DNA from: Antitrichia curtipendula
Taxonomy: Eukaryota; Streptophyta; Bryopsida; Hypnales; Leucodontaceae
Assembly (NCBI GenBank): GCA_951230915.1
Contig: OX579640.1
Coordinates: forward strand, 7,832,981 to 7,896,980
Length of the DNA: 64,000 bases
Direction: 5' to 3'
The translations under genes were made by a program, and so were the position numbers. Positions within the stretch are counted from its first letter, which is position 1, and every line of letters starts with the position of its first letter. The notes under the pieces are model-generated. The model made no database searches and had not been told where the DNA came from. It worked only from the letters and a program-made list of their open reading frames with translations. Below are positions 12,021-61,466 of this stretch, one piece after another.

Positions 12021-12180
12021 TATTTTGCGTGCGGTGAGCGTAGAGCATAAAGCGGTGAGCATACTTTTGCAAGCCTTGTGACCACCAAAATGGACATATT
12101 CTATAAAAGTAAAAGTAGAAGATAAAATCTAAGGAAAAAAACAAGTAAAAATAGAAAAAAAAGTGAAATAGTAGGGCCCT
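12021..12180. repeat. Candidate left terminus of Element D (TIR core plus subterminal repeats)
   Basis: Contains GCGGTGAGCGTAGAGC and a second GCGGTGAGC, matching the GTGAGCG-rich TIRs of Element B, then a run of AAAAGTAGAAG / AAAAATAGAAA words. It lies about 1.1 kb beyond the 3' end of the methyltransferase gene, as in B, where the gap is 1.28 kb. Confidence 0.5.
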
Positions 12181-13170
12181 ATTTCCGTGAAGTAGGTCGA
12201 TTGTGTGAGAAAAAATTGATCACAATAATAGGCAACACAAGGCGGTTAAATGACAAACACAGATGATTCATGGAATAAATTGAGTAGGTATCCTATAGCC
12301 GTGGAAATCCTATGACCGTTGTCATCCACTAGCCGTTGATATCCTATGCCCGTGTTACACAATGGCCACGGAAAGAGGGCTAAGGTGAGTCGGAACCCTC
12401 ATTCTAGGGACGAACACTCGAATCTTTTATTTAAAATACACCACAAAATTTTAGGAATTCTAGATTCATTTGTGCAAGCAAAGGCCCCAAATTAACTAGG
12501 AGTGATGAAAAAATACCCAAAAAGCATGTCTAAAAATAGGGAGCAATTTTTCTAACTTATCCCTGGTTGGAACAATGAGGGGGTGAATTCTCCCTTTCCA
12601 CGGTGAGAGTTCCTTAAAATAAACTAAGGTACCTTTGAATATTATCACAATGTTAATCCGAATAGAACCATTTGATATTCTTAAAAAATATGCAGACATA
12701 AATGTGTATCCAGCAGATGAAGGAAAAATTCGAAATTATCGTGAATTTATTCACGTAAGTACTGAAGAGAAAAGAAATGTACTCCGAGAACATCCATTCA
12801 TAATAGATATATTCTCAATGCATTAACCAAAGATAAAGCAAACAAACTGTGCAACAAATTTATAAACGAAGTGAAGATTGAAATCATATAGACTTCAAAT
12901 GAAGAACTTCCTTAAATTTTGGACAATTTGAGTTGAAATGTAGTGTTGAGGGAAAAGTATCTGTAAATATTTGAGAGAGTTGCTAACCCAGAATGACTTT
13001 AATAAATGGATATACTGCAGGCAAACAACCAAATTCAATTTGCACTATGAATGGATGCTAAGATGAACCAATACAACAACATAAACAAACGCAGAACATT
13101 ACAAATGGAAGCACAAAATGTATGTGAGTGAAATGAATTCAAAGACTAAATCCGTGTGACATTGAAATTA
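12181..13170. other. Element D 3' flank of the methyltransferase gene
   Basis: No gene supported. Contains two short opposing frames (about 12496-12826) without recognisable features. Confidence 0.4.
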
Positions 13171-16100
13171 TCAGAATGAAAAATCCGAGGAACTGTCATC
13201 AGATGCTGAACTTGGTCCCAAATCAATGTCTGCCTCGTCATCAATAAAAAGATGACCGCGTCTATCAAAACCTCTATCACTGGGCATGGAGATCGGAGAT
13301 GATTCCGCTGTCTGCAACTCAGTGACTCGTGCGTCCCACGGTGCCATAAAATAATCTTTTGCCGGAGAAATAAGTAGGGCGATCACTCTGAGCCAAACAA
13401 GTTCGTGTTAGTGAATTTATCAAGAACAAAAGAATGAAGGATAATAGGTCCAAGCAAGAGACGTACTTACTAAATCTGTTCTTCTTAGTGACATGCCGAA
13501 TAGGAACATCCAGTGCAATCTCTGATGGAGACTCGGAAGCGTCGAGTTGAATGGGAGGTGTAGCTTCCACGTGGTGGAACTGCTGCAACTTAGCCTGGAA
13601 TACCACGATGTCGTCTTCGAGGGCCGCAATGTGACGTCCAATAACATTGCAAGCTTGAACATAATTACTTGGATCTCAAAGAGGGAAATCAATATTGTAC
13701 ATGACCAAAAAACCGGAGAAATTCATGTCAAGAGGATAGACTACTCACCAAGAGAAGCAAATGCATCGAGGATGATGGACCCCGACTTGGTGAAAGCCCC
13801 AATCAGCATTTGAAGGAAAACTGGATCCTTCTCACGGGCGCCTCTCCACGGAATAGATCCATTCATGGATTGAGTGGCCGCAGTAGTAAAATTGAAAAGC
13901 ACATCGGACTCAGCAACTTCCATCCCAAACTCTACCAGTGATTCATCAGCCGCTATCACAAATTCGCTAGAATCCATCGCACTGTGAATAAAGAGCTGAA
14001 TCCGGAATCCTCTGCTTTGGAAATGAAGATTCGGATGATAATTAATTAGAACAGACAGAAAGTAAAGTACAATCTAATGACTAAAACAATTAATCTGAGA
14101 AAATAGTTACCTTATTATTTGAGTTGTAATACGACGCAAAAGGAAGGTCATTGATTCCCCACCACTCCCGATGCAGAATGAAGCTGTAGCACTTTGCATA
14201 AGACAGTACATCAGTCCTGATCTTTGGAACATCTGGGACAAACAATAGAACAGCCCCCGCACCATGAAGGAAATGTTCCGCAAACTCAAAAACACTTTCA
14301 GTTTGTTGCTCAGAGTACTCATTCCAGGCAAGAACATCGTCAGGATTCACCGAAATGGACGGCACCCAAAGTCCATCCTTAATATCGCCGAGAATCAAAT
14401 CAAAGCCACTATGCGGACAAGACATATTCAAAGCCTTTCCACTGTCTTCTTTCTTGACTTGGAGATTTCAACAGATGGAATTCATTAGTCCAAAAAGACA
14501 TAACAAACATGACTGAAAAAAGCTTTGTGCACCGAAAGCGAAGGACTGCGGTTTTAGGCAACAATGAATCACGAAGTGCCGACATCGGCATAGATTCTAA
14601 AACGTAAAATGCCAAGGCATAATCACAACAATAAATCACAACGTAGCAGCCTTCAGTCCAGGAAAACATAAGTTTAAATGGTGATTGAGATGACGAACCT
14701 TAAGAACAAACTTGTTGAGCGTCTCCAGGCAAGTGTGTACCTGAGGAAGAGCTTCCACAATCTGAGTGAGGCTAGAATTTAGAACACAAACAGATGATCT
14801 ACGGGAAGACCCAGACGACGAAGCTGCATTTCGAGAAGCAATTTTGGTCTTCAGCTCCTGAGTGACAAATGACAACGGGCTCGATACCCCACTCAGATCA
14901 GAAACTTGTGGTTTTCGAGCACCACCTTGCGTAAGATGCAGAGCTGTAGGCTGAACCACCTTCAACACTTCCATGTCCGTGTCCACATCCGCGGAGCAAA
15001 ATGCAGGTGGTCCCGCAGCTTTCTAGGCACTCCCGACAGCGATTACATCACTCTCTTCTGCGGTCGCAGCATTTGATGCAGCCTTCTTCTTTGCATCTTC
15101 CTCGGCCTTTCTCTTTGAGCCCCTAGTCTTCTTACCAGCTGCCCCCTTTTGCACTATGTCATGAACTGTCCTCAGCAAAGCCAAATCAGGTTGAACCTTG
15201 TTCCTCAAATCAATCTCAAACGGAGGAGGATTGTTGAGAGGGCAGTCCACATACCAACCACAGACTTCCCAGTGCTCCTTCTTCCACTTCTTGGCAATCT
15301 CATCCAAAATCATGCAATTCTCGGCACGTCTGTCCAAGTAGCTAGGAAAGAAGGACGGCGTCTTCGATGTGGCATTCCGTGCATGCAGCACGAACTTGAA
15401 GTATCGGTAGAGAACCCTGGCCACAGCCTTATCTAGGCCGATCTAAAACTCAGGAAGATGATTCTTGTGAACTCCTTTGCCATCGAACTCATGAGAAAAT
15501 GCAGTATCCCAAAGCTGAATACGATTCTGCTCTACATAATCAGCAATCCCGGGAATTGGACTCTCATCAAGAGGTTGATAATTGATCGCAACATCCAACT
15601 CAGAGAGCGTCGCATCAAACAGTTCCTGCACAGCACTTGCCAACTGCAACAAGAAATGAGTAACAAATTTGACAAGGCCAGATCACAATCAAACAGTTGA
15701 AGAAAAGCTCAGTACGGTACCTGAGCCCACCAGGTGGCCTTATAAAGCCAATCCGGAAAAGCGTGATCAGGAAACCTAGTCTTTGGAAACCTCATCGCTT
15801 CTCGAAGCGATGAGGGTTTGTTCCACCGCTCAAGCCATTTCACTTTCATTGCCGCGTCCATGACTGAGGTTGAAAGGTACCACAACTTCTCTTGGGACAT
15901 CTCTGGGTCGTCTTCCCGGTTCTCATAGTGGATGCAAACTTGCTCCAAAAATTGTGGTGTTTGCCGCGGATCTGCAATGGGAAGTTGTTTCTTTACATCG
16001 GATGACATATCCTTCTTCACCTTATCCACTGCCTTCCCAATGACATCATACAGCTTCCCCGTATTCCACTCACTTGACTTCTCCGGATATTTCTCCTTGA

Positions 16101-18190
16101 ATTTCCTGGTCGCGTGAGCTACTGCCTCCCCCAACTCTTGCTGCCACACAAACAACAAAGCAAAAGAAACAGTTGTCATTTTGGAAAATACAATCCATGG
16201 ATAGAAGCCAGGAAGTTCCCAAACCGAAATACAAGAATCAATAGAGGGGGGTTCTGGACATTGGCAACACATTGAGAGTGACAAAATTGGAGCGCCGACA
16301 TCGGCACCCTCCACAGTAGTGACTAAATTAGTTGAGTGTCCGGGATGGCCAAAGGAGGTGCCGGTATCGACTGTGAATCCGAACGATAGATGAACCCAAG
16401 CAACAAGTATAATATAAAATCACACCAAAACATCGAGCCAGTAAACGGTCCGTACCTAGTAGAGAACACTGATTAACCCGTCTAGTGTCAAAGTGTACCA
16501 AGTGCAAGTCTTGGACTTTTGCTTCTTCTCAGCGTCAGCTAGTTCTTCTTTGGTAACTAGATTCTCGTAATATGATAGGGGTTGGCCAGCAATACTCTGG
16601 AGCCGATAGAGTTTGTGTACAAGGTTTAGCTTTACGTGACAGGTCTGGTTCCTCCTGTTTCAGCAAATCAATGTTAGCAATGAATAAGAATCATCCATCA
16701 GAGTAAAACAGCTCAAGAAAAGGTCTCCGACAGGTGGATTACCAATTGACTTGGTGCAAGGCGGTTAGAAGTGGTCCGATCTGGCCCTCAACCTCCAAGA
16801 TAATCGATTCAATGGTATAATGCCAGGCCGGGTCATCCCCATGGTCTCTGTTAATTATTGGCAGCCAAGCCGAGAGCCGATGGTTGCCGTCCCAAACAAA
16901 AAACATCTTCCCTGAGAATTGCTTCCAAGCATCTTCCTTCTGCAGCTCCCGTTCGAAGATCTCATTCGCAGCAACCCATTAAGGACTCCAACTGTCCACA
17001 TTATTGTCGGTGACGTCATGCGTCTTGCCCTCGTTGTCTTGCAGAGCAACATAGAAGACACCATGCCCGTCCATATATCCGGTACTCACAAAATGTGTTC
17101 CCAGTGCCATGACGTCGTTTTTCAGGTACGGGCGGACTGCAGCCAAAGCTTTCATTCGGCAAAGCGGGATGTTCAGCTTCCACTTCTCTCTTGGACGGAA
17201 ACGGAGCTTGTCCAAGACAACATTGGTGTTCACGGACTCCTGCACGACCATCTTGTCCATTTCCTTACCCAGCTCTTCGGCAGACATCACTGACGCTGCT
17301 TGGTTTGCCTCCTCAACATCTTGTGAAGTCTCAACACCGTTGTCACCAACTTCCTCTGCGTCAAAAATATCGTTAGGAAAAGGACAACAAACAACGGAAC
17401 AAGCAGAAACGAGGTCAAATATATGCACCGGATTCAAGAATGTTGGGTTGAGATGACGACTGCATTCCATCTTTTAACGCATCTCTTCCTGGATCTGTCA
17501 TATCTTCCGATTGACCTAAAAGTAGACAAAAGAACAAAGTATTTCAAGACAATAAACAAAAAAAATGATAGAAATGATGAGTTCCAAACCTTAAGCTCTC
17601 CATTAGAGGGGGTGTCGACAGCGGCACCCCCTCTAAGGGGGAGCTGTGTGCGGTGATGAGCTCCCCTTTAGAGGGGGTGCCGACAGCGACATCCCCTCTA
17701 AAGGGGAGCTGTGAATTCGATCAGCTCCCCCTTAGAGGGGGTGCCGTTGTCAGCACCCCTTCTAAGGGGGAGCTGTGTGCGGTGATGAGCTCCCCCTTAG
17801 AGGGGGTGTCGACAGCGGCACCCCCTCTAAGGGGGAGCTGTGAATTCGATCAGCTCTCCCTTAGAGGGGGTGCCAATAGCGGCATCCTCTCTAAGGGGGA
17901 GCTGTTTACATGTACGAGGGGCTTCGTGGCCTGGAGATGGTACTGCACCTGTGGAGATGCAAAATACAATTGACAGCGTAGAAGGAAGGCAATTGAACAT
18001 AAGGGCAGGGCAACGATTAAATACCTCCTGTAGTATTCGTTGTCTCCTCTAGACTGCCCTTGTCCCCGCGCTCCATTTTTTCTTCCTCCGTTGTATTCAG
18101 GGATGCATTTTCCTCCTCTGCCTCCACGCCCGTATTGTCGACGCTTAGCATGGTTCCGGATGTTTGTTGCTCTTCCCCAGCACCTGTAGG
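13171..18190 (-). pseudogene. Element D ParB-like / beta-class DNA methyltransferase-like gene
   Basis: Spliced gene aligned exon by exon with Element B's copy (46974-56260). Minus-strand exons: a candidate acidic 5' exon at about 18019-18185, then 17429-17515, 16743-17355, 16456-16654, 15721-16140, 14699-15643, about 14111-14450, 13749-13981, 13471-13674 and 13171-13385. The 16743-17355 exon holds the ParB-like domain (IPLCRM..., then WDGNHRLSAW). The 14111-14450 exon has FDLILGDIKDG at the motif IV position. 13749-13981 has SIPWRG (motif X-like), then SIILDAFAS (motif I). This order, IV then X then I, is the beta-class amino-methyltransferase order. In-frame stops at 16979 (TAA), 15443 (TAG) and 15023 (TAG) indicate a pseudogene. 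Two introns present in B's copy are absent here. A Lys/Glu-rich linker (about 15040-15150) is shared. Confidence 0.75.
17594..17903. repeat. Array of five 52-bp palindromes in an intron
   Basis: Five near-perfect hairpins at 17594-17645, 17659-17710, 17723-17774, 17788-17839 and 17852-17903, with a 64-65 bp period. Each has arms of about 24 bp (AGCTCCCCCTTAGAGGGGG... / ...CCCCCTCTAAGGGGGAGCT) around a loop of about 4 bases. Spacers alternate strictly between GTGTGCGGTGATG and GTGAATTCGATC, giving a 129-bp higher-order unit. The array lies in the intron between the candidate first exon and the 17429-17515 exon of the Element D methyltransferase gene. Confidence 0.9.
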
Positions 18191-19230: not shown

Positions 19231-19843
19231 TCCGAGGTCCTCAGATCACCGTCCGTTCCTCAGTCTCGCGGTCCCGATTGTTAGGACAGGCAGTTCCACG
19301 AGCTCGCGGTCCGGTTATTTGGGCTCCCGTCGCCTTCCACTCAGGATCTTGAGATTTCCGGAACCGCTCACTTTCCGATTAACATACCTCCTTGTAATTC
19401 CAACTCTCACAATGTTCTCGCTGTGGTTCTATGGCTTGCCGACGCGGAAAATGGGATCTTGGTTACCCTGGGTCCTGCCTCTCGGTAACTCCTCTCTCAT
19501 CTTTACTGCATGACTCAAGGAAAACAATCCTACCCCAGAAACTTTGCCTAGTTCAATGAACCAAAATGTATCTTAGAAATCAATCTTGCCCTTGTTTGTG
19601 CTTCGAGATTGATTGCCACAAAAGTCACTAATTCGTCACGCGCTGTCCTCTTGTAAATTTGTTCATAGTATAAAAACATATTATAATATGTATTGTTGAG
19701 TAGCTTCATGGTGACGCTATTTTGTTGAATAATTTCAAGATGACGTTTTGTGGAGGTACATGTCATCTATTTAAAAGGACGGCTTTGCTTTAGAGTTTCA
19801 TTGAAGTCCATTAGTGATATTAGTTTTCCACTTTATAGTCAGA

Positions 19844-20302
19844 ATGTCGAACTGGAGGGTTTTTTCAGAGTTCCAAGAGGAAGAAATAGAATCGGAGCCT
19901 GCATTTGAATTTTCATTGTCACAACTACCGGATCAACCTCTTCTGCCACTAAGTCTTGCGCCGCCGCATGAGCGTCCACAAGAAGAAACTGGGCCTTCTC
20001 GTCCGCCAAAGCAACCTCGTGTGGAGCGGCGATGGCACGGGAATCTTCAACGTGACGCTCGGGCACTGGAGATTTTGTTGCAGGTTGGATGTGTTGAGCC
20101 TGGCAGTCGAGATATGACATTTGAAGGATGTTTCGAAGGTCTCAACGTTGATCAATATTACTGCATGATGAAGCCTATTGAAGGAAGTCGTGGTCACCAT
20201 CGTTGGTTAGAAGGGCCAGTGAATCCTTTAACGAAGGCGGGTCGTGTTCATTACATCGCTGCGACTATCAAGCGCATTCTCAAGTTCTTGCAGATGGAGT
20301 AA
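19844..20302 (+). CDS. Hypothetical 152-residue protein in Element D
   Basis: Not recognised. It opens at ATG 19844 and ends with TAA at 20300-20302. The first half is acidic and Pro-rich (LPLSLAPPHERPQEETGPSRPP). The second half looks folded, with Cys (QVGCVEP, EGCFEG) and a basic tail. A TTTAAAAGG TATA-like word lies about 75 bp upstream of the start. It sits between the methyltransferase gene and the Element A insertion. Element B has no equivalent, so it may be extra cargo of D or a captured fragment. Codon content is reasonable, but a chance frame is possible. Confidence 0.45.
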   Translation: MSNWRVFSEFQEEEIESEPAFEFSLSQLPDQPLLPLSLAPPHERPQEETGPSRPPKQPRVERRWHGNLQRDARALEILLQVGCVEPGSRDMTFEGCFEGLNVDQYYCMMKPIEGSRGHHRWLEGPVNPLTKAGRVHYIAATIKRILKFLQME

Positions 20303-21631
20303 AATTAGTCTTGGAATTCTAGTTTTTTACCTCTAATAGGCATTGGTTTAATGTTAGTACTTCAATCCATATTTGAAGTATTTTGTTGAAACTATTTTGT
20401 TTGGTTATAGTTGTAGAAGGAAAGAATGGAAATAGTTTGGACTTTGAAGTGATTTTCCTTCTAAGTTAAAAATAAAGATATAGATGTGGGGCCAAATATG
20501 AAGGCCATTAGGTGTAAGTTGAATTTAAGAGGGAGTTAAGGGCTGATGTACACTTGTTTAGGTGGGGCAAAAGGTGTTGGAAAAGGGGAGGAAAAGATGG
20601 ACACTATTCATCTTCTCTCCCAATGTTGTTTTGGGGGAACCGAGTGTTTGGAAGCTCATTGTGTATTGGGTTTTTGGAATTTGGTAATGAAAACTGGAGG
20701 AGTTGTTTATCATACTGTTAGCTTTCCAAATTGTTCTCTCTTGCTTTATTTGAAGTTGTGAGTTGAGATTTGTGCTTGTTTGAGTGGAGGGAGGTCTGCT
20801 GCCTCCTATGAAGAGGGGCTGAGACTTCGACCGACCATAGAAAACAAACAGGTCCTTTGTTTAAAATGAAACTTTGATGGAGTGTAGTACATGTTGTTAG
20901 CTTTCTATAAAGCTATCATTCATTCAATTTGGAGCATTTATGAGTGAGTTGTGAGTGTGGGAAGGTGAGAGAATCTCTTGTTTTTACCATATATGGACCG
21001 AAACTTTGAGAGGTCATAGAAGTTTGACAGAGTTTTGGAATGACTTGAAAGTTGTAGGAGTGATAGGAAATTTTGTTAGCTCTCAGAAACGCTATCAATC
21101 TTTTAATTTGAAGAAGAAATGCAAAAGTTATGAGTATGGAAGCATAGGAAGGTCTGCTGCCTTCTTTTTTTGAGTGGAGTTTAGGTACTTTGAGGGTGAA
21201 GTTGGAGTTCTTTTAGAGTTTTGAAGATATTTTTGAAGATGTGAAGGCTTAAAGACTTGAAGATGAAGATTTGAAGAGCTTTGAGGGTCTCCAGTGTGTT
21301 GTGGCTTGTGGTTCTTTTTCATTTCTGTTATTCCTAGCCGGATTTGGAGGCTAGTTGCAATTCAATTTCTACATTGTAAACCTGTTGCAAGCCGTGGTTA
21401 TCCAGTAAGTGCTCTTTTTTGTATTTGTGGTGACGAAGTGGGGTTAATGGCCCACATGGTCGATCTTATTTGTTGTTCCCACCGGTGAAAGGCGCTTCCT
21501 GGTCACCGTGGGTTTGATTTTAGGAGCCAATCTTTCGGACGGCCAACTTGTGGTTTGGTCGTCCCGTTTTACCCGTCCGAGGCCTTGTTTCTTATAACAC
21601 ACCCTTACCTTTGGCCCTATAGAACCACCTC
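20303..21631. other. Element D interior, degenerate repeats, no gene
   Basis: Contains two or three diverged copies of a motif block (GTTAGCTTTC, AATTTGGAG, GGTCTGCTGCC) around 20720-20830, 20880-20960 and 21070-21165. No supported coding sequence. It ends at the target duplication of Element A. Confidence 0.45.
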
Positions 21632-21639
21632 AGGATAGG
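21632..21639. repeat. Element A left target-site duplication
   Basis: AGGATAGG, identical to 37777-37784. Eight base pairs is the hAT superfamily standard. Confidence 0.93.
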
Positions 21640-21649
21640 CAGGGTTGAC
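21640..21649 (+). repeat. Element A left terminal inverted repeat
   Basis: CAGGGTTGAC, perfectly inverted at 37767-37776. Confidence 0.93.
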
Positions 21650-21970
21650 AGGACGTCCGGACGTCTGCGTCCACGTCCGGCGGACGTGGACGCTGACCTC
21701 CGGACGTCTTTTGACATCCCTGGACGGGCCGTCCGCGCGGTCGGGAGGCTCGTGGACGGGCCTTCGGGCGGACAGGGCGGACGGCGGACGGACGCGATCA
21801 AGCGGACGAGATCGCGCGGACGGATCTTGCGGACGGGATCGTGCGGACGCGATCGTGCGGACGGGCACGTGCGGACAGGACGTCCGCCCGATCCCGTCCG
21901 CACGATCTGCCCGTCCGATTCGCACGTACGCGTCCGCATTGCCTGGTCCGCCTTCGGACGCCATAAATAG
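21650..21970. repeat. Left subterminal GGACGT/GGACGG cluster of Element A
   Basis: Dense iteration of GGACGTCCGGACG and CGGACGGGC-type words directly inside the left TIR, on both strands, in otherwise AT-rich DNA. It lies about 275 bp upstream of the plus-strand gene at 22245. hAT transposases are known to bind short iterated subterminal motifs, so these are candidate transposase-binding sites that may also act as promoter elements. Confidence 0.8.
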
Positions 21971-22244
21971 CGCGGCGGACGGCTCATTCCTCACAATCGT
22001 TTCCCTTGCGGAGTGGGTGATCTAGTGCCTCTTAGTGGCTCTGCGCGCCCCTTTCGTTTTGGTGCGTGAACGATTGTGCTCGGATACTGAATTGCACCAA
22101 TTTATTTTGGTGATTACTTGGTTTTGAAGGCCTTGTTAACAACTTCACCTCGTTTCATTGGCAAGTGTCAAACATTTTGTTAAGTTGTTCTAAAGTTTCA
22201 TGTGAACTTTGTCATCAAATCATTTCATTTTAATCAAGGTTATC

Positions 22245-23342
22245 ATGCCTCGCAATAGTAGTTCAAGGTCCAGTAACAAAGGCAAATTCCATGACATGAA
22301 CTGGGGAGATTAGGCAAATCCAATGTGTGTAGCTGAACCTGGATGGGAAGAAGAGCCCAAGAAGGTTTGGGACTGCACAATGTGCAAAAAGTACGTCAAA
22401 ATGACGCACCTCTCCAAAATGTGGTCATAAGAAAGAGCAGACAAACAAGTTCGACGCTGGGAAGGACAAATTTCCACGTGCGAGAGCCAACACTTTGTGC
22501 ACCGATACGAGGAAGTAACGCGGTGCGCTGAGCTGCCTGACTCCAAACCAAATGTTATGAATTATTCTAACATGGCCATGGTTTGGGCAGAGATTGTACT
22601 CCACAAAGATGTAGATTGGCGCACAATTTACGGGAAAAATGTTGACAATATGAAGCGCACTGACGTTGTTATTTATACGAGTTGGACTCAACCAAGCGAT
22701 TGTATGCGAATGTGGTCCAATCGAAGGCAGTTTGGATTTCCGCTGGTTGTATTGCCGGATGCTGAGGATGAATGGTCGGACGACGATGATGTAGAAGACA
22801 ATCCAGCACCCGTAATATTTACAGTGGGACATGAGCGTCAAGAAGCTCGGGAAGACATCGAGTTCAATCAACAAATGCAAAAAGCTATGCGTAGGAGCAT
22901 GGAGGATCGGGGTCAACAACACGGGCATGACAGGTCCTACCAACATGATCGTACTACATCTGGTTCACAAGATGGTCAAAGGGTCTTACACTACGCTAAC
23001 GACCCCCGAGGTACTTATTACAACCCAGAAAGAAGCCATGGAACCACACATGATTTTGGATCTAGCCAAGGAGGCTCCCAATACTTGTCCGGATCTACTA
23101 CGGGTGGTTCATATGAGCGTTACACAGGCTCTCGTCATGTCGAACCAAGGCAAGGAAGGTCTCAGCACCGTGATGTAGTTCCTCCTCCAACTTTTGGAGG
23201 TCCTTACTATGGAAATCCCAATCAAAGAGCTACGCCAAGCGACTATGAATGCACTTGGGGCGGAGGACCATATCTTGGCACTTATGGATCCGGTTCCACA
23301 CCACCAAAACGTAGAGATGACATCCATTCAGATTCCGAGTAA
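22245..23342 (+). pseudogene. Element A cargo: novel-domain protein with Gly/Tyr/Ser-rich tail
   Basis: Family unknown. From ATG 22245 one frame runs to TAA at 23340, broken by TAG at 22311 and TAA at 22428. The N-terminal part (residues about 20-130) is homologous to the region upstream of the RING frame (36962-37381). Shared features are CK-[KR]-YVKM, C-x3-HFVHR, NYS...MV-[WY]-AE and a VDW motif. Then come an acidic stretch (DDDDVEDN) and a low-complexity tail of about 150 residues rich in Gly, Tyr, Ser, His and Gln, ending in PPKRRDD. Such tails are typical of intrinsically disordered nucleic-acid-binding proteins. The conserved Cys/His residues could bind metal. The two nonsense codons suggest an inactive copy, or translation only from internal Met codons. 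Confidence 0.6.
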
Positions 23343-23620
23343 AGTAGGTAGAGCTATTTTAGTCGTTATCTCACAATCGAGTGGGCCTTGGAATCTTTTG
23401 TTATTGGATTATAGAGTGTGGCAATCATAGTACAAACATATCGGCATCTCGGCGAATAGCATTTACGATTTTACGTACTAAAATATTTTGATGTAAATAT
23501 ATTGTATTAAAATGTATTTGGAGGTTGGTACTTGGTATCATCATAGCGGTATTGTTCAAGTATCAACTGTATTGCTTTTCAATATAAAAAATATTTGCGC
23601 ATGACCAAATTCTATTATCA

Positions 23621-24570: not shown

Positions 24571-24915
24571 ATGTGTTCAACATTGATTATACAATTTTGA
24601 ACCCAACCAGATTAAGCTAACATCCATCAACAATAATTGTTGCATTGCACTTCTCATTCAAGGATTTCAAGCAAAACATATGATGAATGCATAAATAGAT
24701 GGTAGACATTGGACATTAGAAGTTTCAAAACACACAAACATTTCAAAACTTTATATGAATTATAAGGGTGCATATATATTGGCATACATTGATGGTGCAT
24801 ATATATACTAGAAAATCCTTGCACACAATCATGCAAATTTATGTACTCGCCTCTACATTTACCTAATACTTTTATAGTTCTATCACTTCTATGTCGTCCA
24901 CTAACACCATAGACA

Positions 24916-26408: not shown

Positions 26409-26629
26409 CGTGATGAAATCACGTTTAGAAGTGCACTTGCAATTTGTAATCCACAAGGCAATATACGATTTGCCAAATGACCATACGCGAAATGTAGAAA
26501 AAAAAAGCAACAAGTATCCCCTAGAAATCACACTCTTATCTTCCCTTAGAAAGGAGCCAATGGAGGATAAACCACCAAGCTCTCCGCTTTCTCTTGCATG
26601 ACACAAGGGGGAAGATAAAAGTGAGGAGC

Positions 26630-29070: not shown

Positions 29071-29071
29071 C

Positions 29072-49900: not shown

Positions 49901-52900
49901 GGTCGCGGCGGAGCTCGTCTTGGCCCCGAGAGAAGTCCTAGGGTCACGGGGTCATGCATAACTTATTTCAGTCGTTCTTGTTCTCGTGACGGAGCTCAGT
50001 CCCTCTCGGGAAGACAACACGCGCCTTGTGACCATCTGGTCACCGCAGCTGAGGCCGGACAAGCCAGCCAGTCCCTTTTGGATATATATTTTTTTTTATT
50101 CTCCAGTTGGGTCTCACGTCACGTTCTCTTCAGTTTCGCATTCTGCTGCATGGCTTGGTCACGTGGGGTCTCGTCTCGGCCCCAAAAGAAGTCCCAGGGT
50201 CACGGGGTCATGCATAACTTATTTCAATCGTTCTTGTTTTCGTGACGGAGCTCAGTCCCTCTCGGGAAGACAACACGCGCCTTGTGACCATTTGGTCACC
50301 GCACTAGAGGCCAGACAAGCCAGCCAGTCCCTTTTGGATATTTTTTTTTTTGTTTCTCCAGTTGGGTCTCACGTCACGTTCTCTTCAATTTCGGATTCTG
50401 CTGCATGGCTTGGTCACGGCGGAGCTCGTCTCGGCCCTGAGAGAAGTCTCATGGTCACGGGATCATGCATAAGTTCTTTCGATTGTTCTGGTTTCGGGAC
50501 GGAGCTCAGTCCCTTTCGGGAAGACTACCCGCTCCCCGTGACCATCTGGTCACCGCACCAGAGGTTGGACAAGCTAGACAGTCCCTTTTGCATATATTTT
50601 TTTTTGTTTCTCCAGTTGGGTCTCATGTCATGTTCTCTTCAGTTTCGCATTCTGCTGCATGGCTTGGTCACGTGGGGTCTCGTCTCGGCCCCGAGAGAAG
50701 TCCCAAGGTCACGGGGTTATGCATAACTTCTTGTGATCGTTCTGGTTTCGGGACGGAGCTCAGTCCCTCTCGAGGAAACCACCCGCTCCGCTGTGACCAT
50801 CTGGTCACCGCACCAGAGGCTGGACTAGCCAGCCAATCCTTTTTGGATTTTGTTTTGTTTTGTTTCTCCAGTTGGGTCTCACGTCACGTTCTCTTCAGTT
50901 TCGCATTCTGCTGCATGGCTTGGTCACGGCGGAGCTCGTCTCGGCCCCGAGAGAAGTCCCAGGGTCACGGGGTCATGTATAACTTATTTCAATCGTTCTT
51001 GTTCTCGTGACGGAGCTCAGTCCCGTTCGGGAAGACAACATGCACCTTGTGACCATCTGGTCAAAGGGTCACGGGGTCATGCACATATTTCCTTGACTGG
51101 TATGCGTCCAACTGACGGAGCTAAGCCTTGATCGGGAGTTCTCACCCGATCCTCTGTGTTCTGGTGGTCACCGCACCAGGGAGCCGGCCATGCCTGCCAA
51201 GCATGTTCGCTTTTTGTTTTTTCCATTGGTCGATTTGTTATAGTCACGACCTCTTATATTCGGTCTTTCTATGCTGCTTGGCTTGATCACCGGGAACTTT
51301 ATGCTGGCCCCGAGAGGGGCTCTGGATGCATGTGCTCATGGGTCAAATATAGTATCATTTTATTCTTATGTCCGACATACGTGCTTGTTCTACACAGTTT
51401 TGTCCGTTTTTTTAACCGTGTACTAATTGTGTGGTCTTCTCTATTCTCTATATTGCTAGCAGGTGCGGGCTTCTGAAGATTTAATGCAAGAGGATACTGG
51501 ACCGGTTGGTGTTACAGTTGTCCATTCAGCCGGCGCAGAAGTTGGTGTCCCTGAGCTTCCTGAGGAGGTTCCCATGGCAGTGGTAAACCTTGACAATCTA
51601 TTACGTGACCTAGATCAAGCACTGGATGATATGTATAGGGATGGTCGCATGCCCCCTCCTGAGTCTACTTGTACTTCACTGGGATCCAATGATGTTGAGG
51701 TTCATGACTTCTGTACATGTAATCATCAAGATGATGAAGTTACCTCTGCAGTAGATGGAGACAAGGACATTTATATCTTGTGCTGTGGAAACTACAGATC
51801 CTTAGCAGAGAAATGCATATGTGGCATTTAGTTTGTTTTATTGGAGGGCCGTGGTTGAATCTCCTGGATTGTTCAATCCAGTAAGTTCATTCTCTTGAGG
51901 ATATAAACAAGGTTTATCATTGGCTCACACACCCATAAGTCTACCATTCATTGATTGGAGTAATATCAGTATTTATTAATTTTCTGTTTCATGTGTGTGG
52001 CTAATAGTGGAAGGAACCATATGATTGCTCCACCGACGAGGTCATCGAGGTTGACGAGCTGGAGGATGATAGAATTCAGGGAATTGAACCCCACTACATG
52101 GAAGATGACATTCGGCGATCCCAGACGATGGACACAGTTTCTATCATTTCCAGTCTGAGGCTCACTTTCTCTGATCAGTCTTGTATGAAGATACCTCTAT
52201 GTAGGATGGTTCCAATGCCAATGGTACGACCAACCCTGGAATGTGACCTTACATTGTTAGAGAATCAATTTAGTCGTGGATACGACAAAGGCGCAAGAGT
52301 ATTCTACGTCTCTACATCTAATGAGCAGGGACAATCAGCTGTATTTTCAGATGCTGAGAAAACTGAATGGGGACCACATTGGAATGCGGCGAATGACAAG
52401 TTCAACGTATTCTTGAAGTCGCAGACATCGTTGAAGCATTTGCTGGATTACAAGTTTTATGTCTGTGATGGTAATCACAGACAAATTGCTTGGATGAAGC
52501 ACATCCAGAGGCTTCACAGCACCGAGGCGGCTTGGCATGTCAGTGTTGATGCTATTGTCCTCGACACTAAGAATCGAATTGGAGTAGCTATGCAGGCAAT
52601 GCACGACATAAACAAGTAAGCGAGGTCATGCTGGGTTCATTCATGTGTTGGAGTTTCTATAATTTTGGTATTGATTCAATTCATTCATGTTTCTAGTGAT
52701 ATTTGATGTTCTTGTCATTCTCTGGTTCAGGCAGACGGAGAATTCTCATATTAAAACGAACCTCGTACATACCCTATATCGGGTCCAGAAGTACGGGGTC
52801 ATGGGACTTGAGAAATTCCATGAGCTCCTTAGTCCAGAAGAAGCACACACTTGTAGCCAAAATTCTCGCAAGACTTGGTACAGTATGCCGCTTGAGATCT

Positions 52901-55900
52901 TTACGTCGTTCATATTCAAGGTATGAAGTTCTGTCTATTTGATGATATTGCATGCTTTGTATGAGTGAAGGATCACTTCGTTGTACTCTAAAATGGTGCT
53001 ACCGTGTTGAGGTCCGAAATCGATTTTCTCTTTCTTCAGCAAGACATTGCGTCGGCTGCTGATGCCGCAGTCAGGAAGTATAACGAAGACACTCCACCTA
53101 GTAAAGCTACGAAGGAGGGAGTGGCAACGGCCATGCGAGTTTCCATTAAAGATTCTACGGAGAAGCTCTACAAGAAACTGTCAAAGATTGTTGCGGTTGC
53201 GAATTCCGCGCTTGGTTTTGAGTGGTTGAAGGAGGTATTTTGTCTTCCTTTATTCAATTATGTAAAGTCAGATGTTTCCATTTCGATTCTTCTCACTCTC
53301 TTTTCATTGACTGTCTGCAGATTGAGAGGCATTGGAGCTTATATTCGGTCCCCGAATTGACATTGGAGAAGTTACAAATGATTGCGACATGCAATACGAG
53401 TCCATCATTCAAAGTGAGGTGGCTGAAATGGATGAATTCCTCCGGCCCCTCACGAGAGGCACGTAGATTTCCGGCCAGACCAATCAACGAGGAGAGGTTA
53501 TTATAGTTTCTTGCAAAGGCATGTTGATATGCTGGGGTAAGCATTGGAATTGTCTTGTTTGGTGCTTTTTGAATAATCCATCTATTGTATTTCTTCAATG
53601 TGTAGGATATTTTGATGGTGCATGAGACCCTTAATATTTTGTCACATTATCCTGTGCCCAGATCGAGGACTCTGCTTCTAAAATGTTTGATGCAATCATT
53701 CGATCTGATAACATTTCTATCGATCTCACTGTCGCTATGGAGCCGAAGACTCTGTTAGAATATATCGAGAATTGGCGCATGAAGCTCTGGGAACATGCCT
53801 ACACGGGGGTGTTCAAGGGTGCTGATGCATACAAGAAGTCTGAGTCGTTCAAAGATTACAGAGGGTCTATTCTGGCTGTCAAGCGAGTTATATACCGGTA
53901 CAGTGTTTTTGCCCTTTCCTTGTTGGTCAGGTCATTGTGTATCGGACAGTATACTTTAATTGATTCACTTTATAAGTTCTGTCAATAGCCTTGAATTCAA
54001 AGTGGACCTCGGGCCCAATGGAAGACGGGCTAGCAGGCGTCATTGCACCCTCCACTTTTCCCTTCCTGATACTATGTGTTTTCGGGGTGATGTAGGTACT
54101 TCAAGTTTGAGTTGTACATCAAGAAGGCCATCTCCAAAGAAGATCTACCGCCGTTCCTTACGACATGGTTGGATCGCTCTTCTCCAGACTGCATGTTTTC
54201 TCCTATGCAGTTGAAGAATTGGACCAGTGCTCACCTGCAAGCCTGCCCGTGGTACCTTGAGTGCAACTTCGGCACTACTCCACCCGAAGAGGAAGCACTC
54301 TTTGACACTTTGAATGACACTGGGATTGTGGATCTAGAGTTCGATGAGTTCGCTGGTCTGGATCCCGATGCTCAAGCAAAGGCCATAAAACGACGAGATA
54401 TATTAGACAAGAAGAAACTGGAGAAGCTGGAGGAGGCTAAGAAGAAGGCCGAGGACAGCAAGATGAAGAGATTGGCCGCTCAGGCTGAGAAGGACCAGGA
54501 GAAGTCGAAGAAGAGAGGGACAAAGAGGAAAGCCTACACTCCGGATCCCCAACCTGCCACAAGTGCAGCTGACGTTAGGGAAGGGTCATCTGGCTTCTCC
54601 TTTACTCAAGAGAGACTTGTACATGGACTGACACCAACGGTTCAAACTCTTCCTGCCGTTCCAGACATTGATGAGTGCATACTGAACTTGTCAGTGGGTT
54701 CCTTACCTACAGATGAAAAGGCCTTCGATGACATCCTCGCCTTTCTAGACATGGTTAGTCATGTTAACATTTATTTGTTCGTGCATTATTAGAACATGGA
54801 TAGAATACATGTCAATTGAAGGTCTTTAGAACATGTTCGTTCTGGCAATGGTGTGATGCTCCAATTGCATGTTTAGATGAATTAACTGACACCTCTTTGT
54901 ACTCTGCAGCACTGTACTGATAAGGACAGGTACTTCGATGGTATATTGAGTACTCAAGAGGCAGTGGATCTCATCTTTGTGGATGTTCCTGAAGGTCTAC
55001 ATGTGCCGACTGTGTCTGCTCCGCCTGCCTCGATTCCCGACTGGAATGAGTTCAAGAAAGGGTTCCTAGTTCCCGTTTTTGACTTTGCGAAAGAGTACCT
55101 CCACGACAAGGGCGCCTTATTGGTGATGTATCCAGCGCCCTCCACTCGACACAAGAGTCACCTTCTCGGATGTTGCAAGACGTACAATTTTAGAATTCTT
55201 CTTACGTGGTTCGGCATGAACCACCTACATCTCACATCGCCAGTTGATCAAACCAAAACGGTAATTACATTTCTTTATTTTTATATTTTGTCAAATCTTG
55301 TGATTCTTTGATCTATTGTATGTTAACCTCTCCATTGTTTGCAGACCATGCGATTCTCAATCTCTCTTTTAGTGAAGGAGTCGGGACCCAAAACCGAATC
55401 GGAGTTTCCATTCCAGTTTGTTCCATCCCATCAAGAGGTGGGTGTGGATGTGGCTAGGGACGATATACTCCAGAATTTCTGCAACAAAGAAGATGTCACC
55501 ATGAATGGTTCCATTCCATGGAGAGGTCCTCGAGAGAAGGCGCGACAATTCATGCAAATGCTTGTCGAGGCGTTATCGGAACCAGGGGACGTCGTGGTAG
55601 ACTGCACAGCAGCGACAGGTAACAAATCTTCTCTAATTCATTGATTTTTTTAACCAAGACCAAACTGAAAGGGATTTTCAGAAGTAATTTTTTTTATTCG
55701 CATGGATGTTTTCAGGATCAAGCATTCAAGCATGCCGTGCATCGCGCCGGCACGTCTTGGCATTTGAGGAGGATAAGGAGATTTTTGACGCTCTGATTGC
55801 ACCGGTTCTACGCATGGATGGGTATTTTCGACCAGCACCGGCACAGAATATTCCAGAAATTCAGGATGTGGATGAAGAGGACATGGAGCCTGAGCATGTT

Positions 55901-56260
55901 GTGAAGACATCTCGATTCAGTAAGTAAGTTTAACTCGAAAATCTATTCTTTACATTGTCTATTCTCATTCCACTAAGCATTCAGTCTAATTATCTCTTCA
56001 TTCCATTATCCAGGCAAGCCAAGAAAGTGAGGTCTCTGACACATGTGCCGTTCTTTGGGAGGCCTGAGTTCTTTCCAAGCCCCCCTAAACCATTTAGGCT
56101 ACCTGTATATGCTGAGTCCAACGCTGGAGAGTTTATTGCCCTTGAGCTAAAGCCAAGCTCTCGAGCTCGGTGGGTAGATCCTCGTGTTCTAGACTTCGTG
56201 GATGACTGTGTTGTTGAGTCACAGTCAGAAACGTCAAACAGTGAGGGTAGTACAATATGA
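46974..56260 (+). pseudogene. Element B ParB-like / beta-class DNA methyltransferase-like gene
   Basis: Twelve exons with GT-AG borders: 46974-47090, 51463 to about 51883, 52008-52615, 52731-52920, 53040-53234, 53321 to about 53536, 53662-53897, 54096-54753, 54910-55260, 55345-55618, 55716-55923 and 56014-56260. All junctions checked keep the frame except around exons 2 and 6. Exon 3 encodes a ParB-like domain (IPLCRMVPMPMVRP, then VCDGNHRQIAW). Exon 8 is a Lys/Glu-rich linker. Exon 9 has DLIFVDVPEG at the motif IV position. Exons 10-11 have SIPWRG then VVDCTAATGSS...FEED (motif I). IV-X-I is the beta-class N6-adenine/N4-cytosine methyltransferase order, and ParB fused to such an enzyme is a known prokaryote/phage design. 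Exon 6 has TAG at 53503 and TGA at 53524, and exon 2 hits TAG at 51829, so this copy may be broken or use alternative splice sites. Confidence 0.78.
47270..51345. repeat. Satellite array, about 15 units of 255 bp, in intron 1
   Basis: The landmark ATGCATAACTT recurs at about 47401, 47656, 47911, 48167, 48421, 48678, 48933, 49190, 49443, 49699, 49953, 50209, 50465, 50720 and 50975, a period of 255-256 bp. Two unit subtypes are interleaved irregularly: GATCGTTCTGGTTTCGGGAC and CAGTCGTTCTTGTTCTCGTG. Diverged units flank the uniform core (about 47170-47390 and 51070-51345), as expected of an array homogenised from within. Because 255 is 85 codons, several frames stay open; I take these as artefacts. 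The array fills the 4.4-kb first intron of the methyltransferase gene. Confidence 0.92.
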
Positions 56261-57199
56261 GATCTCTCTATATCCTAAACTTCCAAACCCTACTTTTATA
56301 TCTTCTGTATATGCTTATGTCCCTAAATCGGGAATTATTTTCTCTACATTGTTGCCGGTCCTATATTTATTTTTGCTGAATGCATTGTCTACTTTTTGCC
56401 ATCTTCCTGCGATATTGTGCTTGTCGTATCATCCCTTGTCCTTCGTATTACATATCATTCTCTTGATGTGCCCTTCGAGGACCGTAATGTTTCCATTTTT
56501 ATTACTGTGTCTAGAACTTACTTATATTCAAATCATATATATAATTTCGTTAACCGCGTATTGAACTTGGTATTTGTGTTTTGGTACCTCTGAACCTGAT
56601 AGTCCCGTGTTGCATGAGCCCTAAACCCTAAACGCATCTCTTGGTGTCGAGACGGGACTATATTAATTTTATTCATTCATTAAACCACGTGTTTGATTTC
56701 ATAAAATACTTATCATTGTGAACTATATTTCCCAAAAATTTGTCATACTTGTTCGAAGAAGCCAATACTCCCGAAGTCTTCTTGGGCCGAAGACATGGAC
56801 CTTGAAGACCTCTTGCCCATGCACATGCCTTGGGTTGGACTGTCCGTTCCGCATTTGTCTTCCTTTGCGTAATCTGCCACTCTTTTTTGTCTTCGGTTGT
56901 ACACATTAGTTTAGGATTTGAAATTGCATTGTTATCCAAGCATTAATGTTAGAGGATTATTTTGTCCAGATTATCTCGCGGAGCTTTTTACACTGCGAAA
57001 TACGAACACCCCCTCCGTGTCAGTCGTCGTGCACTTCTTTCAGCCATGTCGTGTAATTGTCTACTAACCACTTTGAAGTACTACACTATATACTCGACTA
57101 ATCACAACATGTAGAGGCTTTGTTTTCCAAAAACCGCACATGCTACAAAATTGCCTTCGCCAGCTATTGTCACATTCTAAATGAACTAGGATACGAGTT
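56261..57199. other. Element B 3' flank of the methyltransferase gene
   Basis: About 0.9 kb without a supported gene. It holds a CCCTAAACCCTAAACG telomere-like word pair at about 56617-56633. Confidence 0.45.
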
Positions 57200-57390
57200 C
57201 TTCATCAGTTTGCATCCAATTTTTTATCCACTTTTTCATCTACTTTTTCATCCATTTTTTCATTTAATTTATCATCCACTTTTCATCCACTTTTCATCCA
57301 CTTTTCATCCACTTTTCATCACCTTTTCATCCACTTTTCATCACCTTTTCATCCACTTTTCATCCACTTTTCATCCAATAGCATCAAGTC
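57200..57390. repeat. Element B right subterminal repeats
   Basis: About ten copies of CATCCACTTTT, the inverse of the left-end GATGAAAAGTGG words. The regular 11-bp stretch at about 57270-57375 is the purest part. Confidence 0.85.
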
Positions 57391-57469
57391 CTCCCTCAAT
57401 TTTTTCCCAAACTTTAATCTATTTTCAAATTTCTCACTTTCCAAAAATTATATTATAGTTCTAATATTG

Positions 57470-57541
57470 TGGCTTCCCGCTCACCAATTCCCGCTTCCCG
57501 CTCGCTACTCGCCGCTCCACGCTCACATACCAACATTCCCC
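57470..57541 (-). repeat. Element B right terminal inverted repeat
   Basis: CTTCCCGCTCACC, CCGCTTCCCGCTCG, CGCCGCTCCACGCTCAC and a terminal CATTCCCC. Imperfect inverse of 40670-40740. Confidence 0.8.
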
Positions 57542-57551
57542 GAGTATCTGC
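57542..57551. repeat. Element B right target-site duplication
   Basis: GAGTATCTGC, identical to 40660-40669. Joining the two flanks with one copy restores an uninterrupted reading frame that matches the uninterrupted paralogue. Confidence 0.92.
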
Positions 57552-60500
57552 CACCACATTTTAATGGTGATATTATCTTTGAGCTCCCTCCAATGAGGAA
57601 GTACCCACTGTCCACCAAGGCCGGACAGCTCTATGGCATGGATAAAAAGGATGATGGACACGCTTGGACTCGAACAGCTATTACGCATATCCAATCAGCA
57701 TCTCAACTTTCTTTCAGATTGTCTAATTGCTTGGGACATCTACGATGCACGAATACCGATTGCGAATATGTAAGTCGGCCTAACCATTTGTCTACGTCAA
57801 ATGAAACTGAGTGGGACGGTCTTGCTTCCTCAGCCTTTGTTCCCGGATCTAATCCCCCCTCTAATTCTACTGTTTTTTGTGCCCTCTGCCTGTTGAAGCC
57901 TACTTGCCTAGATAGTTGCCCTGCCAAGATATATTATGTTTATGGCCCAAGTTACATGACCCGTGCATATATCCATTTTGGATTTCATTCACATCCTGTG
58001 AAACAAGGTAATTATCGAGAGTCAGGTGCCAAACTGCGTACTCTTATTGGCGAACATGTAAAAAGGACTCCATCAGCGACAAACTCTGCCATTGTCCTTG
58101 AGGCGACAAAGGAGTATCTTAGCGAACTACTTTTATGTCCTGATGGTGTGCCTCAAAAGACTCTAGTAATTGATGAATTAATCCCTGTCCTCGACAAGGT
58201 TAAGCAAATGTCGTCTCCGAGTATTCGAAACAAGGTCACCACTTTCCAATACCTACGTTGTTTTGGAGTCTTGGACAGCATCACCAAACTGAGGGGATCT
58301 AGCAATTGGGCTTTCATCCAAGAAAATAGATTTCCGGGACAAGGAAAGGACTCCGACAAGGTATTCATTTTCAAGATGGCGGAGTTGGGCTCCGGAAGTG
58401 GGGTCGACTTGGTGAGGCGTATGCAACCCGGAGGTGACTTGGAAAACGCCTGGATGATGTTTGACCATGTCAAACGGGTGAAGTTTTGGACCACAATGGC
58501 TTGTCATGTTTATGACTCCACGTATTGCCGCGTCATGACTGTTGCTGTTTGCGATATGCAATCTGAAGATGTGGCAGCTCAACTAGTGTTCTGGAAAAAT
58601 CTGAATGCTATATCTTCTAAGCATAATATTACTAATCCAAATTTCAAAGGATTCATGGCTGACAGTGCACATGCAAACTGGAATGCTGTACGTATTGTCT
58701 ATGGTGATGGGGACCCAACAATCCCCATGGTCAACCGCGAGAGGACTTGCCTCTTCCATTGGAGCCAATCACTCGAGAAGCACACCAAGGTAGATATCAG
58801 AGCAGACTTGCAAGATCAACATCGACGCCTCTGTAAAGAATACAAGAATTCTATATCACTGGAAGAGGCTCAAAGTAGGTATTTGTCCATCCGTGCATGG
58901 TGGTTATCATCCGGAGCTTCAACTGATGAAGGACTTCCAAGACTCGACTTATGGCTTGCATTCTGGCATTTTCGATACCGTCAATGGGGGGGATTCATGG
59001 AACTAGTAAGTGCAAGCTTCAATTGATTCTTCTTTTTGTTTCACCCACCATGCACTTGTCATGCCAATATCGGCACTACTTCTAGGTAGTGGCAGTTCCT
59101 GCATGTCTTCCTGTTCTTTGCTCCATGTTTTGTATTCTTGTAATTCGTTCCAGCACTCATAACATAGGATTGTGTGCAGGATCTATCACTACTCGAATTG
59201 GCCGAGATGCCGTCATGTAATTTGGCCGAGTCTGTCCACAACAAGTGGTTGCAACAATCAGGCAAAAGAGGGAATGATTTGTACGTTGCTTCCGTCAATG
59301 ACATGGTTAAAGCATTCATGCAAGTGGTTGCCTACTACCAGTTCCTGAAGGGTGAAAAGCCAGGTACTGGTCCTGGGAAAGAAGAACTCTGTCTTCGTAC
59401 AGCTCAACGCACCGCTCAGCGCTCCGAGAATTCAAAGGTTTTTCATGCCGCTCTCGCCAATATGCCTGGTGTTGGCGTCTTCTGCACACGTGATCCTCAT
59501 CTGGAAGGGGAGGAAGTTTTTGTTTCCTTGAAGCAAAAGGTAGATCTCCCTCCGGGATCAAAATTCGACTTGCACCGCCCTAACAAGATCAGTGTCTCTC
59601 GACCGAGGCGAAAAGCCCAACGGCTCAACCCAGAGATTGTTGATCTCACTACCGAGGACCCCGAATCGGAATTCGAACTTCGACCAAGAGAAGGCACTGC
59701 TCCCCCGCTGAAGTCACCATTGACTACCTCTCCGGCAAAGCATGTCAAATCAGTTCAAGAGACTGTCTGCGATGAGCGGCAGTGGCATATTGCAAGACTC
59801 CCGAGGATGTCTGCAAAAGCTTGCTTTGCTCTGCAAGTCAAGACGAAGAAGAAATGCGTGGCAAGGATTGTGCAAGACAATCGAAGTACAGCTGCCCCAA
59901 CTTATGCAGGCTTGATGGACAATTACAAGAAGGTCAGATTAGAGAAAATGCAGTTCTTCTTCTGCAATGATGACATCAATTGCTGTGTCAATGGAACTCG
60001 GCGGAAATGGGTAGTTTCTAAACCTATTGTCCCTGATGTATGGCCCATTAAAATGGGCACAAACTTGACGAAGAAAGAGATTCTGACTCTCGAAAACGCC
60101 GGATTCCACCTTATGGAGCGCGTCGAGTTATCCCCTCGGAAGTTGTTTGCGGAAAGCTTTTCTGTAAAACTTAGCGACTATCCTCCTCCTCCAAACCCTT
60201 TTGATCACCCCACCAAGAGATATGGAAAGAACATTCGAAGAAACCCTGCCGCTCCAACAACGAAGCACCACAACAACTGCGCTTCTGCTCTGTCCATTGT
60301 CGGAGAGATCTGCAGTATTTTAATGGTTCCTCTTCCAGCTCTCGGCTGCATTGTTACATTAGAGTCTAGAAATATTTCTAAGCTATCTAGGTATTTGCTG
60401 ACGGTTGGCCAGTTCCCAAGTTGTGACTGCCCTTCGTTCAAAGACATGTCACAAAAATCACTTGGCAAGCGAGGAGCATGGACGTATTGTAAGCACTTGT

Positions 60501-60628
60501 ACTACATATTCGTCATTGTTTGTGTGCTAGATCCGGAGGTAAATCTCTTTATGCACGCTCCTAGTTTTAGCTGGAATGAGATAAAACAGGTTCTACAGAT
60601 CCTGCTACTTAAACACTACGGTGTATAG
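57552..60628 (+). pseudogene. Element D MULE/SWIM transposase, 3' part
   Basis: Continues the gene begun at 40010. Exons 57552-59005 and 59180-60628 with a GT-AG intron at the same place as in Element B (after GGFMEL). The core has FKGFMADSAHANWNAVR and TCLFHW, the MULE second Asp and C-x2-H. The C-terminus keeps a complete SWIM zinc finger (CDC, then CKH about 26 residues later), which Element B's copy has lost. It ends with a TAG at 60626-60628. No internal stop is seen in this half, so the C-terminal two-thirds is better preserved than in B. The gene as a whole is inactivated by the Element B insertion. Confidence 0.87.
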
Positions 60629-61466
60629 TGAGCATGAATAGTCCCAATACAACAATGTGATCCTGTCCCCCTACTTTCAACAAAAGGCAGTGATACTGGA
60701 AGGGCCACCGCCATAGTCTGTGCATGCAGATTTTGTTGTTTTCAACTTGCTCCATAATCAAATCCTAAAGAAGTTATTGGAGTATTTCCCCCTCATCATG
60801 TAAGTTCATAATACTCTGAACTTTGGAACTATCCTATTGTCCATTAGTCGGTCTCTCTTCTTAAACTGTAGCTGTCTACTCTTTCACTTACAATCATGTA
60901 TCTCTCTTCTTAAACTGTAGCTGTCTACTCTTTCACTTACGCTCCTGTATCTCTCTTCCTGCATCTTGATTCTCCTTCGAACTACCCTAAATCCTAAATC
61001 TATCATCTCTGAGCACTTTAAACCATTTGCCTCTGCCTTCTAAACCCTAAACATACGCTAAATCGTGAGAAAACATGTTCCCCTACCACCACGGTAGTTG
61101 CTCTTCCTCACTCCTCCGTGCCCCTTCAACATCACGGACTCTCTCTAACTTTAGTAGTCCCCTCAACAAAACACCTTCACTCCCACTCGGCTTCCCTTCC
61201 GCTCTTCTTCTTGCTTCAATTCAGAACCACACATATTATATCTCCTAAACCTCAAATAACCCTTGTCACCACGGTCATAGGACCTTCTAACCGGTACTTG
61301 CAACTTTTGTCTTCTTCATTGTACGTGTACTGCCAACCATAAATTGATCTACACCATACTTCTGCAACCTACTCCATGGTCATAGGTCCATTATTATTAT
61401 AAATTTCAGGAGCATCAACTCTTAAAATATTTTATAACTTTTACTTTATTGCCCGTGTCGCACGCG
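60629..61466. other. Right terminal region of Element D
   Basis: About 0.84 kb after the transposase stop, without a gene. It includes a 49-bp tandem duplication (next entry), CCCTAAA-like words (60987-61060) and, at its end, TTATAACTTTTACTTTATT then GCCCGTGTCGCACGCG. That end mirrors the left terminus words AAAGTAAAAGTAGAAG and GCGTGCGG. Confidence 0.45.
60852..60949. repeat. 49-bp tandem duplication
   Basis: TCTCTCTTCTTAAACTGTAG...CACTTAC repeated at 60852 and 60901 with near identity, plus the start of a third copy at 60950. Confidence 0.85.

Follow-up and report, generated by a model that had tools for sequence, protein, structure and literature searches.

A nest of giant DNA transposons in Antitrichia curtipendula

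We analysed a stretch of 64,000 nucleotides from the genome of Antitrichia curtipendula (C8:7832981-7896980, contig OX579640.1; hereafter the window), in which a giant hAT transposon (element A) and two related giant transposons that resemble Mutator-like elements (MULEs; elements B and D) lie nested in one another. The initial annotation of this DNA had proposed three large nested DNA transposons, and comparison with copies elsewhere in the 400.19-Mb assembly (303 contigs) bears this out, with empty sites for A and B in those copies. The nest itself is therefore real, but it is larger than proposed and has other bounds, with D running from 12012 to 65096 and three further inserts (E, F, and G) now recognized. 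The layers, as established by comparison with other genomic copies, are A within E within D, F within A, and B and G within D. We consider it very likely that the segment is such a stack of insertions, with an IS256/MuDR-type gene 1 and a gene 2 that encodes a probable, most likely nonmethylating, cofactor. The elements and their parts, in window coordinates, are as follows (LTR, long terminal repeat; ORF, open reading frame):

12002-12011 and 65097-65106: target-site duplication of D, 10 bp, GATAAAGAAC, identical at 10/10 positions (right copy outside the window)
12012-65096: element D with all inserts, 53,085 bp, ending 1,096 bases beyond the window end at 64000
19649-21631: left part of insert E, which is an abundant LTR-like repeat
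21632-21639 and 37777-37784: target-site duplication of A, 8 bp, AGGATAGG, perfect
21640-37776: element A, giant hAT, 16,137 bp, termini CAGGGTTGAC
23624-24566: element F inside A, 943 bp, ends TCCCCTAA...TTAGGGG, TTA duplication
30463-32982, minus strand: A transposase ORF, 839 aa, DUF659 and hAT dimerisation domain (Pfam)
33932-36565, minus strand: second A ORF, 877 aa, RING-H2-like finger (Pfam matches all below curated cut-offs)
37785-37940: insert E, right part
40660-40669 and 57542-57551: target-site duplication of B, 10 bp, GAGTATCTGC, perfect
40670-57541: element B, giant MULE-like, 16,872 bp, interrupting a coding exon of D gene 1
47200-51200: array of a 255-bp tandem repeat, approximately 15 copies and 4 kb, between the divergent genes of B
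61456-64994: insert G, LTR-like, 3,539 bp, ends TGTCG...CGACA, duplication GCCCG (the window ends at 64000)

Copies elsewhere settle the bounds of element D

Our sample of the D family consists of 10 fetched copies of approximately 20 kb each, chosen by identity rank (ranks 2-11 of the best 40 scored places). Copies of D elsewhere begin at the base corresponding to window position 12012 and continue beyond 61458. Both termini are present in 7 of the 10 fetched copies, 13.3-16.7 kb apart and flanked by 10-bp duplications; with the window counted, six of the eight duplications are perfect, and two match at 9 of 10 positions. The right-hand copy of GATAAAGAAC was predicted from the other D copies before the downstream DNA had been seen, and was then found just after the conserved terminus. 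These observations move the start of D from the proposed 12032 to 12012. The proposed end at 61466 proves to be the junction with insert G, with the real end, taken from the other copies and the downstream sequence, at 65096; the 9-of-11 duplication previously assigned to D arises at that junction and is thus spurious, with no age to be read from it. The true duplication is a perfect 10 bp, and the insertion order that had been drawn from duplication decay falls away. The order instead follows only from the relations of host and insert: D was in place before E, B, and G arrived, and E before A. Without its inserts, D measures approximately 14.4 kb (53,085 less 18,292, 16,882, and 3,544) instead of the approximately 16.4 kb first calculated. 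The corrected bounds illustrate that duplications read off one copy can mislead, and that it was comparison with other copies that settled the matter.

The D family occupies at least 39 further places at 87-97% identity, five of them at 96-97%, among the best 40 scored. All 7 of the fetched copies that have both ends also contain both genes, so the two genes of D do occur as one unit elsewhere, as had been supposed.

A giant hAT element lies in an LTR-like repeat

A scan for inverted termini bordered by duplications confirmed the size of A and its perfect 8-bp duplication exactly. At its termini, the first 10 bases are inverted at 10/10 positions, and 11 of the first 20 are; we take these ends to be hAT terminal inverted repeats of the CAG type. 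The hAT label is further supported by the transposase, which matches DUF659 (E value 1.4e-33) and the hAT dimerisation domain PF05699 (E value 2.1e-10). Copy counts across the genome, here and for the other families, refer to the best 40 scored places of longer candidate lists. The A transposase segment is present at no fewer than 39 further places at 97-99% identity (best 40 of 459 candidates); 31 of the 40 scored places for the left end begin at base 1, and 38 of the 40 for the right end extend to base 598-600 of 600. When left and right ends are paired, 10 of 12 pairs, the window included, span 16.1-16.8 kb (the remaining two span 20.9 and 42.3 kb), and approximately 16 kb is thus the length of the family, not a peculiarity of the window copy. 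Pairs of left end and transposase are likewise collinear at 9.2-10.5 kb in 12 of 15 cases, again including the window; of the other three pairs, one spans 6.2 kb and two span 35-40 kb.

Direct insertion of A into D was rejected as a placement, because the flanks of A are repeat E, which is itself in D. The proposal that both A and B sit inside D consequently holds for B, which lies in an exon of D gene 1, but not in that form for A. The E flanks, when joined (150 + 150 bases with one AGGATAGG), match at 296-300 of 300 positions, at 96-98% identity, in all 40 scored places of 325 candidates; these matches are at once empty sites of A and proof of the abundance of repeat E. For E itself, D copies run contiguously from 19648 to 37941 in 5/5 of those aligning on both sides, an empty site based on contiguous alignments, and the extra DNA at this point is A plus approximately 2.1 kb of E. 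Most scored copies of E lose the match at 37932 (...CCCGACA); the shared part finishes in ...CGACA, the repeated bases at the ends of E are only TCC, and we call E LTR-like provisionally.

Insert G is absent from 10/10 fetched D copies, in which the joined site shows 0-11 mismatches in 43 (a comparison made without a shuffled control). A Pfam search of its ORF at 62574-63917 (minus strand, 447 aa) gave no significant match. The small element F is absent from the A relative at C2:43.2 Mb, which provides its empty site. Three related AT-rich repeat copies of 0.6-1 kb, in both orientations and related to F, are found at 7300-10300. Within A, degenerate telomere-like repeats of the CCCTAAA type (26960-27060) edge an AT-rich block of 2 kb, and a 65-bp repeat array with a GC content of approximately 70% occupies 29040-29524.

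Element B interrupts a D gene, and all three families are multicopy

Both the 16,872-bp size of B and its perfect 10-bp duplication were confirmed exactly. The empty site, with a single copy of the duplication, is seen in 10/10 fetched D copies with 0-7 mismatches in 40, as compared with 16-19 for a shuffled pattern. A 1,557-base segment of the B transposase recurs over its whole length at 24 or more further places at 96-99% identity (best 40 of 925 candidates), and the first 800 bases of B are matched over their full length at 28 places (87-100% identity), at 27 of these from base 1, with the window included. The search of this genome for relatives, a check of the kind that had been suggested, yielded empty sites for A, B, E, and G.

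The A and B families have amplified recently. DNA transposons of 14-17 kb are multicopy in this genome, and the presence of A and B in many places at 96-99% identity indicates that their size did not keep them from spreading. The suggestion that three such elements in one locus would be unusual accordingly fails within this genome: all three families are multicopy, and they have become nested independently a second time on another chromosome, at C2:43.2 Mb, where a B relative lies inside an A relative inside a D copy. The B relative there is 13,915 bp long, as against 16.9 kb for B, and has a perfect 10-bp duplication; the A relative is 93% identical to A and starts at the terminal base of A, and its right end has been lost together with 173 bp of D. 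A further B left end, possibly an extra layer, adjoins this second nest at C2:43221726-43222494.

The existence of two nests that arose independently from these families, with B and the A relative both in or near D gene 1, might mean that the families aim at one another and that a preferred target lies in D or is D itself. We regard such targeting as unlikely, given that chance nesting is itself likely at high copy numbers and that the comparison draws on only 10 D copies, chosen by identity rank. The nesting probably came about simply because the families are multicopy.

Gene 1 resembles IS256/MuDR-type transposases

B and D were rightly described as related: both contain the same gene pair, with the same divergent orientation. 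The genes are arranged as follows:

13171-17473, minus strand: D gene 2 (outermost coordinates taken from open frames), with 3 in-frame stops among the exons inspected
16742-17356, minus strand: ParB-like exon of D gene 2, followed by middle exons and by N6/N4-methyltransferase-like exons at approximately 13468-14461
40010-40669, plus strand: first exon of D gene 1 (transposase), as far as the point where B inserted
57552-60628, plus strand: remainder of D gene 1, with one exon to 59005 and one from 59180 (splice sites placed by eye)
41674-45377, minus strand: B gene 1 (transposase), 2 exons, with 2 in-frame stops in the second
51460-56261, plus strand: B gene 2 (outermost coordinates taken from open frames), with a ParB-like exon at 52008-52616 and methyltransferase-like exons from approximately 54910

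The target-site duplications of MULEs are 8-11 bp long, those made by KDZ and Sola1 elements are 8 bp, and IS256 and MuDR are related. Against this background, the MULE-like label first given to B and D is supported by their 10-bp duplications and by the predicted core of gene 1, for which the nearest structure is the IS256-type transposase of ISCth4, with a putative WRKY/GCM-like zinc fold. A Pfam search of gene 1 matched no family, and B gene 1, when compared with PDB sequences, gave a single weak TetR match (E value 0.33). The B relative and exon 2 of D each show a CxCx(n)CxH pattern of SWIM type, with no profile match, and the first Cys of this pattern is absent in B. We read gene 1 as an IS256/MuDR-type transposase, a predicted fold that is moderately supported, with transposase activity presumed from it. 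The competing assignment of B and D to another large superfamily that also reaches such size, KDZ/Zisupton or Sola1, appears improbable in view of the 10-bp rather than 8-bp duplications and of the predicted ISCth4-like core with its putative zinc fold. In its favour are the failure of gene 1 to match any Pfam family, the divergent ParB-methyltransferase gene of Ectocarpus Sola1-1, and the often giant size of KDZ elements (PMC12477816).

The window copies of both elements are damaged. In D, besides the stops in gene 2 and the insertion of B, an 8-bp insertion in gene 1 (40438-40470) repeats TTCATG and causes a frameshift of its own, unrelated to B; it is absent in 4/4 close copies and may be a hAT excision footprint, which it resembles. 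With two in-frame stops in exon 2 of B gene 1 as well, neither copy, judging from its sequence, looks autonomous now, and both would need proteins supplied by other copies.

Gene 2 joins a ParB-like part to a methyltransferase-like part without the catalytic motif

For the ParB-like exon of B, 36 relatives were found. The structural model, which covers the B exon only, has a predicted local distance difference test score (pLDDT) of 78.0 and a predicted template modeling (TM) score of 0.71, and its nearest structures are Noc, ParB, PadC, and Srx (for the top five hits, probabilities of 0.95-0.99, E values of 0.028-0.11, and TM scores of approximately 0.3). A Pfam search of this exon gave no match, and the D-type ParB exon matched no PDB sequence. 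The methyltransferase-like exons match N6_N4_Mtase (PF01555) in 5/5 members (best E value 1.1e-6; in one member the score is 21 bits, below the cut-off of 26.7), and five PHROG methyltransferase families match in four or five of the five. By profile, these exons match DpnA (E value 0.0022) and CcrM (E value 0.0068). Upstream of D gene 2, at 17590-17905, a 65-bp repeat with strong inverted symmetry occurs five times.

Active N6/N4 DNA methyltransferases have a motif IV of the form (D/N/S)PP(Y/F/W). This motif occurs in 0/17 B-type and 0/8 D-type sequences: DPPY is replaced by DVPE or DIKD, and the fourth position is E in 17/17 B-type sequences and D in 8/8 D-type copies, never aromatic. Motif I, in the five sequences aligned, reads DAFASLG in all four D-type rows and DCTAATG in B; the relative at C2:43.2 Mb has DCTAGTG. 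Because of these motifs, gene 2 most likely no longer methylates DNA.

At the same time, the ratio of nonsynonymous to synonymous substitution rates (dN/dS) is 0.08-0.18 for the parts of gene 2, and 0.14-0.20 for gene 1, for which some alignments are partial; the 28 comparisons, which take both genes together, are not independent and skip stop codons. Such low values indicate that selection has preserved the protein products of both genes throughout the family, even though single copies carry stops. In protein searches of other assemblies, contigs with lengths of 555475, 156924, and 559682 recur for both gene 1 and gene 2, a hint that the pair may be linked there too.

Could gene 2 nevertheless encode a working DNA methyltransferase with which the element marks its own DNA? 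Purifying selection on the methyltransferase-like part would fit this, as would an architecture shared with proteins for which binding to, and modification of, the transposon that encodes them has been proposed (PMC12477816). The acidic residue at the fourth position of motif IV in every B-type and D-type sequence speaks against activity, as does motif I in the aligned sequences, although the DCTAGTG of one relative departs from the others; we think it quite unlikely that the enzyme is active.

A proposed history of the nest

The relations set out above can be read as a sequence of events. D, a giant MULE-like element, entered the flanking DNA with a 10-bp duplication; E entered between the divergent genes of D, and A, the giant hAT, entered E with an 8-bp duplication. 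Giant MULE-like B entered the coding exon of the D transposase gene, again with a 10-bp duplication, and LTR-like G entered close to the end of D. That the nest is instead an assembly artefact or a chimaera of repeat copies, as might be feared where all parts are repeats and the structure is read from the assembly alone, is very improbable, given the exact duplications at the DNA-transposon junctions, the empty sites in independent copies, and the predicted far end of D that held 1,096 bases beyond the window.

For gene 2, we tentatively propose, as a possibility on which we would place less than even weight, that the MULE-like lineage captured a bacterial ParB-methyltransferase gene, and that this gene became a pseudo-methyltransferase under purifying selection, a nonenzymatic counterpart of the methylating passengers of algae. 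The selected protein, with its ParB-like and methyltransferase-like folds, would probably bind the element's own DNA or chromatin and would act as a transposition cofactor or an anti-silencing factor. If so, a cofactor of this kind would help such large elements to attain high copy number, and the transposon would be using a bacterial DNA-recognition module without writing the mark; loss of gene 2 should then alter mobility or silencing, not methylation.

Comparison with known systems

Element A shares with hAT elements of the DUF659 type an 8-bp duplication, CAGGG-type ends, and DUF659 together with the dimerisation domain, and differs in its length of approximately 16 kb (10/12 pairs) and its second, RING-H2-like ORF. 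B and D resemble MuDR and other MULEs in their 10-bp duplications and possession of a second gene, and may also do so in a predicted IS256-type core, a putative WRKY/GCM-like fold, and a near-C-terminal CxC...CxH pattern. They differ in the lack of a Pfam match, in their 14-17 kb length with short imperfect inverted ends, and in the nature of that second gene, which is ParB- and methyltransferase-like rather than mudrB, VANC, or ULP1. Among bacterial proteins, the B gene 2 exon is predicted to have the ParB/Noc fold, and the motif I-II segment of gene 2 aligns with methylases of the DpnA/CcrM type; in contrast to these, gene 2 has introns, resides in a eukaryotic transposon, and has lost DPPY.

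In the literature we searched, mostly without subscription papers, we found neither a ParB-methyltransferase passenger in a MULE-like element nor selection on a passenger version lacking the catalytic motif. Giant transposons with ParB-methyltransferase genes are already known, and the MULE-like setting and the selected, predicted pseudoenzyme are apparently new. A close parallel is Ectocarpus Sola1-1_Ec32, an element of 21.5 kb with a ParB-like plus N4/N6 methyltransferase gene on the strand opposite the transposase; ParB-methyltransferase genes in giant DNA transposons are also cited there for green and red algae (PMC12477816). The algal giants are like B and D in their size, their opposite-strand ParB-methyltransferase gene, and their frequent nested inserts, and they differ in two respects: the Ectocarpus element is a Sola1 whereas B and D are MULE-like, and its protein is predicted to modify DNA, whereas in B and D motif IV has been lost (PMC12477816).

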